Positions 27,774-29,131 of a stretch of 40,219 nt of DNA are shown here, one piece after another (the first letter of the stretch is position 1; every line of letters begins with the position of its first letter). The DNA lies in NCBI GenBank assembly GCA_945861895.1, contig CAMAWF010000023.1:1-40219 (forward strand), read 5' to 3'. A program made the position numbers and the translations under genes. The notes below the pieces were generated by a model. That model did no database searches, had not been told where the DNA came from, and saw only the letters and a list, made by a program, of their open reading frames with translations. The stretch comes from Rhizobium sp. Q54 (GTDB lineage: Bacteria > Pseudomonadota > Alphaproteobacteria > Rhizobiales > Xanthobacteraceae).

Positions 27774-27968
27774 ATGCCAGCGATCGAAGACGACGAGCGG
27801 CCGAAAAAAAAGATCACCCACGAGCTTGGGCAGGACGTTGCCTTGCTTTCGGTCGAGGAGCTTGGCCTTCGCGTCGCGCTGCTGCAGCAGGAAATCGAGC
27901 GCCTGGAGGCGGCGAAGGCGAAGAAACTCGCCTCGCGCGATGTGGCGGATCAATTCTTCAAGCGCTGA
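27774..27968 (+). CDS. DUF1192 small protein
   Basis: This 64-residue protein matches DUF1192 of alphaproteobacteria: an acidic N-terminus (MPAIEDDERPKKK), then LSVEELGLRVALLQQEIERL as the main helix and a short C-terminal helix with ASRDVADQFFKR. A coiled coil in the middle is likely. GGAG seven bases upstream supports the ATG at 27774. The function is unknown. A CtrA box and a structured terminated region follow immediately, between it and rcdA. Confidence 0.87.
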   Translation: MPAIEDDERPKKKITHELGQDVALLSVEELGLRVALLQQEIERLEAAKAKKLASRDVADQFFKR

Positions 27969-28001
27969 AGCAGCCTAGGGCGTACTCAAATTATTGCACC
28001 C

Positions 28002-28016
28002 TTAACGCGTCGTTAA
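28002..28016 (+). promoter_or_regulatory. CtrA-binding box TTAA-N7-TTAA
   Basis: TTAACGCGTCGTTAA matches the full TTAA-N7-TTAA half-site pair recognised by phosphorylated CtrA, the alphaproteobacterial cell-cycle response regulator. TACTAAT at 28031-28037 is a reasonable -10 region. The box therefore sits where the -35 would be for a start near 28041-28044, the usual position for CtrA activation. Confidence 0.7.
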
Positions 28017-28040
28017 GCTTTCCCCTTCATTACTAATAAC

Positions 28041-28132
28041 CGTCCATCTTCATGGACGTTGAGTGGCTCCTGTCCACTCTGTTTGACGCCTCCCTGTTAT
28101 CAACTTAGCCGCCGGCACCGGCGGCTTTTTTT
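28041..28132 (+). ncRNA. Candidate CtrA-controlled small RNA
   Basis: The segment from about 28041 to the terminator forms three hairpins in a row. The first is CGTCCAT/ATGGACG with the loop CTTC (28041-28058). The second is GAGTGG/CCACTC with the loop CTCCTGT (28061-28079). The third is a GC-rich terminator (28108-28132). The single-stranded stretch between the second and third contains CCTCCCT (28089-28095), and the second loop CTCCT; both resemble anti-Shine-Dalgarno sequences used by alphaproteobacterial trans-acting RNAs. A CtrA box and -10 sequence precede it. An alternative is a terminated leader or the 3' end of the DUF1192 mRNA. No Rfam family was matched. Confidence 0.55.
28108..28132 (+). 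terminator. Strong intrinsic terminator before rcdA
   Basis: GCCGCCG/CGGCGGC (28108-28114, 28119-28125) with the four-base loop GCAC is followed by eight T residues. It should stop transcription from the DUF1192 or CtrA-box promoter, so rcdA needs its own promoter between about 28133 and 28276. Confidence 0.85.
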
Positions 28133-28276
28133 TGTCCCGTTTCGGGGCAGTTTTCGCCCTCCGGCCGGCAACTATGACGCAAGGTATGCGGCGCGGACGC
28201 TGGACAGGGCGGCCGGCCACGGGTCATGCTTGACCCCAAGGGGCGGAAAGCTCCGGGTTGGGTGAGGCGTAAGCGT

Positions 28277-28801
28277 ATGTCTGAGAACTCCGTGAGCGAG
28301 GCGCAGCCGGTTTCGTTCGGCGCGCGGCTGGCCAATTCGGCGGCGTTTGCCGATCTGTTCCGCGAAGGCATGGCGCTGGTGGAAGAGACCGCGACCTATC
28401 TCGACGGCCACGGCCGGCAGGAATCCAAGCGACTCGAGCGCGGCGCGGCGCTGGCTTATGCGACCGAAAGCATGCGGCTGACCACCCGGCTGATGCAGCT
28501 TGCTTCCTGGCTGCTGCTGCACCGCGCGGTCAAGGAAGGCGAAATGTCGCTTGCCCAGGCCAACAAGGAAAAAAGCAAGGTCAAGCTTTCGGTCGGCGAG
28601 TCGAGCGAGCCGAATAATTTCGAACTGTTGCCTGAGCCGCTGCAACGATTGATCGAACGCTCGCAAAAGCTCCAGCTCAAGGTGCGCCGCCTCGACGCCA
28701 CCATCCACAACCGTGTCGCGCCCGAACGCGCCATCCTGTCCAATCCGGTGGAGCGCCAGATCGGGTTGCTCAAGGCCGCCTTCGAGCAGGACGTGCGATA
28801 G
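28277..28801 (+). CDS. rcdA: Regulator of CtrA degradation (DUF1465/RcdA)
   Basis: This 174-residue protein is DUF1465, the family of RcdA. In Caulobacter, RcdA is an adaptor that helps deliver CtrA and other substrates to the ClpXP protease at the cell pole. The all-helical fold is visible: ASWLLLHRAVKEGEMSLAQA, LLPEPLQRLIERSQKLQLKV and a C-terminal NPVERQIGLLKAAFEQDVR. The ATG at 28277 with GAGG about ten bases upstream starts the family region; an in-frame upstream start adds basic residues. A terminator shared with rpmE follows. Confidence 0.88.
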   Translation: MSENSVSEAQPVSFGARLANSAAFADLFREGMALVEETATYLDGHGRQESKRLERGAALAYATESMRLTTRLMQLASWLLLHRAVKEGEMSLAQANKEKSKVKLSVGESSEPNNFELLPEPLQRLIERSQKLQLKVRRLDATIHNRVAPERAILSNPVERQIGLLKAAFEQDVR

Positions 28802-28882: not shown

Positions 28883-29131
28883 CTATTTTTTTGCTTCGGC
28901 GGCCTTGTCGGCTTTGAGAAAGCCGGAGAATTTCTTTTGGAAACGCGACAGGCGCCCGCCGCGATCGAGCAGCTGCTGCTGGCCGCCGGTCCAGGCTGGA
29001 TGCGATTTCGGGTCGATGTCGAGATGCATGACATCGCCCTCCTTGCCCCAGGTCGAGCGGGTGGCGAATTCGGTGCCGTCGGTCATCACCACCTTGATGG
29101 CGTGATATTTGGGGTGGATATCCGGCTTCAT
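28883..29131 (-). CDS. rpmE: 50S ribosomal protein bL31
   Basis: This 82-residue bL31 of the large ribosomal subunit begins [20 protein letters not shown] and contains [20 protein letters not shown] and [20 protein letters not shown]. It lacks the CXXC pair of the zinc-containing form, so it is the C-minus type. The ATG at 29131 is the conserved start. It is divergent from the ABC exporter gene across a 198-base gap in which I see no further gene. Confidence 0.96.

Follow-up and report, generated by a model that had tools for sequence, protein, structure and literature searches.

A CtrA-type box conserved before the BjrC1505 (RF02356) RNA beside rcdA in Rhizobiales: a probable CtrA-controlled small RNA with a near-invariant core

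The DNA considered here, called the window below, is a stretch of 40,219 nucleotides from Rhizobium sp. Q54 (contig CAMAWF010000023.1), and the interval between its DUF1192 gene and its rcdA-like DUF1465 gene raises the question of what a CtrA-type box followed by a short structured RNA does at this place. In Caulobacter RcdA aids the degradation of CtrA, and in Sinorhizobium meliloti CtrA levels go up on RcdA depletion (PMC4433202). A preliminary description of the locus proposed a small RNA (sRNA) of about 90 bases under CtrA control next to rcdA. The analysis bore out a discrete RNA with its own terminator, preceded by a box about as conserved as the RNA itself, but the RNA proved to be catalogued already as RF02356 (BjrC1505). 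The reading that we favour, and regard as rather probable, is that of a trans-acting sRNA of about 93 nt, belonging to the BjrC1505 family, controlled by CtrA and pairing with ribosome-binding sites through a near-invariant core, UUUGACGCCUCCCUGUU.

Window positions 27992-28134 match the RF02356 model over its positions 1-140 of 140, scoring 109.7 bits where 50 is the cut-off. By this score, above the curated cut-off, the window RNA is a member of a catalogued sRNA family and hence not new. The screen that founded the BjrC series is reportedly that of Madhugiri 2012. The BjrC RNAs originate in work on Bradyrhizobium japonicum (PMC7143759). In the open-licence PMC literature searched, BjrC1505 is listed in a table of one paper and RF02356 was found in none, and no function is given for the RNA; in the same literature no report was found of CtrA control of the RNA or of its position beside rcdA, and the one-line Rfam description, as far as the extract of the entry goes, mentions neither. 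The window sRNA shares the sequence and structure of this family, whereas the Rfam model treats the promoter box as part of the RNA: it starts 49 bases 5' of the likely transcript start and includes the CtrA box, paired as a hairpin. This 5' hairpin was rejected, eight window positions (four pairs) in it being marked non-standard.

The box itself, TTAA-N7-TTAA with the sequence TTAACGCGTCGTTAA, lies at 28002-28016 on the forward strand and matches the letters of the CtrA motif, published as TTAA-N7-TTAA (PMC12403871) and as TAA-N7-TTAAC (PMC3616915). It is perfect, as first described, and the only one in the window, 0.01 being expected from shuffles. Its conservation was scored over 70 nt upstream in loci of the order, a box being counted where at least 7 of the 8 TTAA-N7-TTAA letters were present; 151 of 158 loci could be scored, six lacking the core by the first pattern and one having too little upstream DNA. 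The box was found in 146 of the 151, with all eight letters in 71 (letter shuffles, about 5%), and in 41 of 42 families the majority of scored loci contained it. The perfect boxes around 154 loci cluster: 73 fall in two 20-nt bins from -100 to -61 relative to the core, compared with 8 in all the remainder of the 600 nt on either side. A family-weighted consensus, TTAACc-N-tttg-TTAA, was derived from 147 loci of 41 families preselected for having 7/8 box letters or more.

The order loci had been found by RF02356, a model that contains the box, and two sets from box-free searches were checked besides. The first came from a covariance model, R1, built from 67 transcript-only sequences, with the box excluded so that detection is independent of it. 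The box was present in 20 of 20 previously unread R1 loci (G072, at a contig start, and G109 were left out), most of which also match RF02356. The second set came from a search with a pattern made of the core plus the bases that follow it, which gave 44 named loci; the box was present in 42 of the 43 scorable ones, and in 35 of 36 after removal of seven loci identical around the core to earlier ones. Outside the order it was found in 21 of 23 scored loci, the remaining two having 6/8 letters. These derive from 30 class loci, of which 26 were taken and 25 scored, L174 and L185 belonging to the order; those left out were L161 (the window's own), L163 (counted with the order loci before), L186 and L187 (core lacking by eye) and L173 (pattern mismatch). 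CtrA thus probably controls the RF02356 sRNA, given a CtrA-type site at about the same upstream place in nearly all copies. In 800 kb sampled elsewhere in the same genome a single further TTAA-N7-TTAA was seen, at position 11835 of L305.

The RNA, as delimited by RF02356 and the transcript-only model, would occupy 28041-28133 on the forward strand. The three hairpins and eight-T terminator given in the preliminary description were recovered: the segment 28041-28135 folds with -35.4 kcal/mol (z -4.4), and none of 200 shuffles was equally good. Stem-loop 1 (28041-28058) and stem-loop 2 (28061-28079) come from the single-sequence fold, the second carrying the described CTCCTGT loop at 28067-28073, and they are followed by an intrinsic terminator at 28107-28133, with its stem at 28107-28126 and eight T residues at 28126-28133. 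Two-sided changes among relatives were counted in 5 of 6 pairs of the first stem, 3 of 6 of the second and 6 of 8 of the terminator, or 14 of 20 in total. The stems being specified by hand, 95.6% of cells were paired, compared with 34-48% with slid partners; none of 500 shuffles reached the observed covariation on four of five measures, and six did on the fifth. The second stem entered this count as folded from the window alone. The RNAalifold consensus, on which R1 was built, drew stem 1 and the terminator and left stem 2 undrawn, with three pairs joining its 5' side to the core instead.

The core, TTTGACGCCTCCCTGTT, occupies 28082-28098, after stem-loop 2 and before the terminator. It is near-invariant in the alignment of relatives, in which loop 2 varies; the most constrained non-stem sequence is therefore the core rather than loop 2. 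For CCTCCC, at 28089-28094 within the core, the centroid fold predicts a place in a hairpin loop, the hairpin (28084-28099) being weak, which revises the earlier view of CCTCCCT as a single strand. In a relative (L160, 1497-1560) the RNA's own core is the predicted pairing partner of the bases 5' of hairpin 1, GAGGCGTAATCC, possibly a self-masking form.

The covariance search in related Rhizobiales, called for at the outset, shows how widely this RNA, with its covarying stems, is distributed. RF02356 matches 54 of 60 relatives and 166 of 199 genomes of the order, and none of 14 control genomes, Caulobacter vibrioides among them; R1 matches 173 of the 199. In the class R1 matches 61 of 289 genomes, four of them belonging to the order; the better matches have the same core and terminator as the order sRNAs, and the low-scoring ones (about 30-35 bits) are doubtful and may partly be due to chance. 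The position before rcdA recurs with the RNA. Of 158 order loci, 147 have rcdA downstream in the same orientation, and of the 40 named loci with room for it, 37 have it within 1.3 kb; a script placed it beside 14 of 26 class loci, two of those 14 in the order. Family membership, covariation, terminator, box conservation and synteny are in this way established by sequence, and they add to RF02356, a known but unexplained family, a CtrA-type box under strong conservation and a long-standing place in front of rcdA.

A diverged homologue was found in a record of S. meliloti Ak57 (L189) at 2696-2802, between DUF1192 and rcdA, with 46 bits for R1; the RF02356 search of this record did not detect it. 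A perfect box precedes it at 2665-2679, and a second perfect box stands at 2839-2853 between terminator and rcdA, so that boxes flank the transcript. Its first hairpin is much longer and starts at about 2692. The record (CP090106.1) is labelled pSymB, yet it measures 3.7 Mb and carries the DUF1192-DUF1465-rpmE block, and may be a mislabelled chromosome.

As to the start site, the binding of CtrA and the sign of its effect, the pairing mechanism and the targets, we infer the following sequence of events. CtrA would bind at 28002-28016, to a box centred about 32 bases 5' of the putative start, a position from which it could act as an activator, a repressor being less likely. The -10-like element suggested at first, TACTAAT, has to be replaced by the conserved ATTACT a few bases to its left (28029-28034 on the forward strand, from the consensus of 35 loci of the window's family, f1), from which a start near 28041 still follows. 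Transcription would then proceed from about 28041 to the intrinsic terminator, ending at 28133. Two hairpins would form the 5' part of the product, with the core beyond them carrying CCUCCC in the weak-hairpin loop. The anti-Shine-Dalgarno-like core, which likely acts antisense to ribosome-binding sites, would pair with these regions of its targets and lower their translation while CtrA is active. In f1 a candidate target would be rcdA, whose repression would stabilise CtrA in a positive feedback.

The neighbouring gene provides the pairing data. The ACGCCTC of the core is complementary to GAGGCGT at 28264-28270 (forward strand) in the ribosome-binding region of the window's rcdA, and the f1 rcdA start regions contain RGGCGT in 34 of 34 loci and GAGGCGT in 25 of 34. 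Pairing of the f1 cores with these regions averages -16.2 kcal/mol, compared with -11.8 for flank-shuffled cores; the start regions of DUF1192, rpmE and the ADH gene in the f1 loci showed no comparable shift, the gene starts of the rpmE and ADH controls being rough. For rcdA the shift found over 37 families is small (-1.2 to -1.4), and the real core surpasses flank-shuffled cores in 27 of them. The family-level p is 1.1e-4, and with new random controls it is 4.6e-4 (shuffled flanks), 0.0048 (fully shuffled) and 4.3e-5 (reversed core). The rcdA start region is conspicuously complementary to the core in f1 and only weakly so across the order.

Several observations weigh against the proposed sRNA, some on the side of the promoter and others on that of the targets. 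The TTAA-N7-TTAA box is a motif match only, a sigma-70 consensus scan found no promoter in the region of 28029-28034, and CtrA can be a repressor as well as an activator. Weak pairing is predicted between the two flanks of the core, and the S. meliloti homologue retains only CUCCCUGUU of the core. In the family-level test the rcdA signal falls to p 0.051 under a stricter control in which CUCC is kept in place; other rcdA windows score as well (-75 to -38, p 0.005; +12 to +49, p 0.002), as do two windows of the ABC gene (p 0.039 and 0.0065), and DUF1192 gives p 0.045 in the opposite direction. Such signals in other windows and genes mean that the family-level pairing test is loose. Against a background of 561 genes, roughly called in 840 kb of the 3.77 Mb genome (a 22% sample), rcdA is not singled out, ranking 21st by energy (with an alternative upstream start) and 70th by specificity. 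The start regions of ctrA (n=25) and gcrA (n=27), from -30 to +7 of the start codons, were rejected as targets of the core, which paired with them no better than flank-shuffled cores did. Among the genes tested no target stands out for the core.

These results bear most directly on a narrower version, in which the sRNA specifically represses its neighbour rcdA and CtrA thereby shields itself from proteolysis. Besides the f1 pairing and the 27 of 37 families, this version has in its favour the co-occurrence of the two elements: of 199 order genomes 166 have sRNA and rcdA, 13 rcdA only (the sRNA being unmatched), 7 the sRNA only and 13 neither, counts that are uncorrected for phylogeny and in which six unlisted sRNA-negative genomes were deduced from a comparison of two tables. 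The ABC gene of the f1 block, however, shows a similar pairing shift (-3.3, n=20), and the seven sRNA-only genomes, of families f18, f45 and f50, keep the RNA where no rcdA was hit; the box, with at least 7/8 letters, is kept in 6 of 6 loci inspected from such genomes. Retention of box and RNA without rcdA speaks against rcdA as the sole target. A target search of the kind proposed at the outset, made with the core, yielded an f1 rcdA pairing above shuffles, but not a gene outstanding among the 561. As a universal target rcdA was rejected, on the p of 0.051 with CUCC kept and on the significance of the other windows; the narrower version is in our view doubtful, and the feedback on CtrA degradation by RNA that had been put forward was not upheld in general, its signal being weak across the order and the sRNA surviving where rcdA is not found. 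For the window's own family the complementarity is suggestive of rcdA repression and of such feedback.

A different account makes the RNA the leader of rcdA: a single CtrA promoter would serve the gene, regulated or partial termination at 28107-28133 (attenuation) would leave the short RNA as a by-product, and the box would control rcdA. The downstream, same-strand position of rcdA in most loci agrees with it, as does the prediction that CtrA control of rcdA is conserved in Rhizobiales, Caulobacterales and several Rhodobacterales (PMC2877005). The terminator, however, is strong and conserved; the sRNA and its box persist where rcdA was not hit, which argues against a simple rcdA leader; and the RNAalifold consensus contains no anti-terminator, although no dedicated search for one was made. 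In S. meliloti, moreover, CtrA is bound in the rcdA promoter region and its depletion leaves rcdA unaffected (PMC4433202), a behaviour that an sRNA promoter at this place may explain, though that species has two boxes there. Given the terminator, it is plausible, as first stated, that the box cannot drive rcdA by simple read-through; partial read-through may nevertheless occur, and the second perfect box of S. meliloti stands between terminator and rcdA. On balance the leader account appears unlikely.

If the favoured reading of a CtrA-controlled sRNA is correct, published CtrA-to-rcdA assignments may partly be CtrA-to-sRNA assignments. The rcdA gene is among the CtrA-motif genes in PMC3616915 and PMC2877005, and in agrobacteria it has several starts with possible CtrA sites upstream (PMC10469942). 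In PMC3616915 a start upstream of a same-strand gene is counted as an sRNA start only if it is more than 300 nt away. In L189 rcdA is annotated from 2977, about 285 nt from the beginning of hairpin 1, and under this threshold the start of the sRNA would be booked to rcdA.

It could also be supposed that the promoter is not CtrA's, the box being an AT-rich repeat read by another regulator or a generic promoter element, as a match to a motif would permit. Both half-sites and their spacing are kept, as the preselected consensus given above illustrates, the published CtrA motifs agree with it, and the genome has a ctrA gene of its own, whose product is 92% identical to the CtrA query; we hold this alternative to be improbable. 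A reading of the locus as the gene of a small peptide (MDVEWLLSTLFDASLLST, 18 codons in the window) instead of a functional RNA is most improbable and was rejected. In its favour, a frame beginning with the ATG of hairpin 1 crosses the core and has a start codon in 31 of 35 f1 loci, and 155 of 158 loci have a start in the next frame (inside the core itself in 74). Outside f1, however, an ATG, GTG or TTG start of the window's frame is present in only 60 of 123 loci; this frame runs into differing tails in 11 of the 12 f1 examples shown, the other frame ranges from 4 to 309 codons, the core is near-invariant at third codon positions too, and the stems keep their pairing.

Among known sRNAs CcnA of Caulobacter (PMC8959179) acts in the CtrA circuit, as is proposed for the window sRNA. 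The window sRNA has, as expected of a CtrA-controlled sRNA like CcnA, a conserved CtrA box in its promoter, by motif match; the two are set apart by description, CcnA being 182 nt long, located at the replication origin and directed at ctrA and gcrA, with whose mRNAs the core showed no particular pairing in the region examined. EcpR1 (PMC4414408) is likewise a conserved Rhizobiales sRNA and acts on cell-cycle mRNAs, but it is stress-induced, belongs to the stringent response regulon and is encoded downstream of divK-pleD; identity with it was rejected, the window locus lying between DUF1192 and rcdA. GspR acts on ctrA mRNA (PMC5928217) and is likely restricted to Sinorhizobium (PMC7143759), which by description distinguishes it from the window sRNA.

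It is tempting to extend these results into a wider, and tentative, proposal, which we would not call likely: that the sRNA is ancient and present in several lines of Alphaproteobacteria, that the CtrA site credited to rcdA of Rhizobiales is its promoter, and that CtrA makes the sRNA, which in at least some families including f1 blocks translation of the adjacent rcdA, so that CtrA slows its own proteolysis. Should the favoured reading hold, one of the most thoroughly studied cell-cycle circuits of bacteria has an RNA limb that went unnoticed, although its gene occurs in 173 of the 199 order genomes and, together with its box, in genomes with no rcdA hit. The core is defined by sequence and can be tested in any laboratory rhizobium; the pairing model predicts target starts carrying parts of AACAGGGAGGCGUC.

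The surroundings of the locus form a recurring block in the order ADH(-), DUF1192(+), sRNA, rcdA(+), rpmE(-), ABC(+). In the window the DUF1192 gene is at 27774-27968 on the forward strand (PF06698, 2e-21), the rcdA-like DUF1465 gene at 28277-28801 on the same strand (PF07323, 8e-57), and rpmE, for ribosomal protein L31, at 28883-29122 on the reverse strand with an approximate start (PF01197, 5.5e-25). Over the 158 loci, some with short flanks, ADH was found upstream in 117, DUF1192 in 121, rpmE in 109 and ABC in 77. A few genomes have a second match to the RNA (G132:C14, G059:C439, G052:C3 and G002:C41), and beside the three second copies inspected (L142, L149 and L158) the script found no rcdA. 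Of the two copies in G052, L137 is accompanied by rpmE and ABC and L158 by DUF1192 and ADH, as if the block had been split between them.
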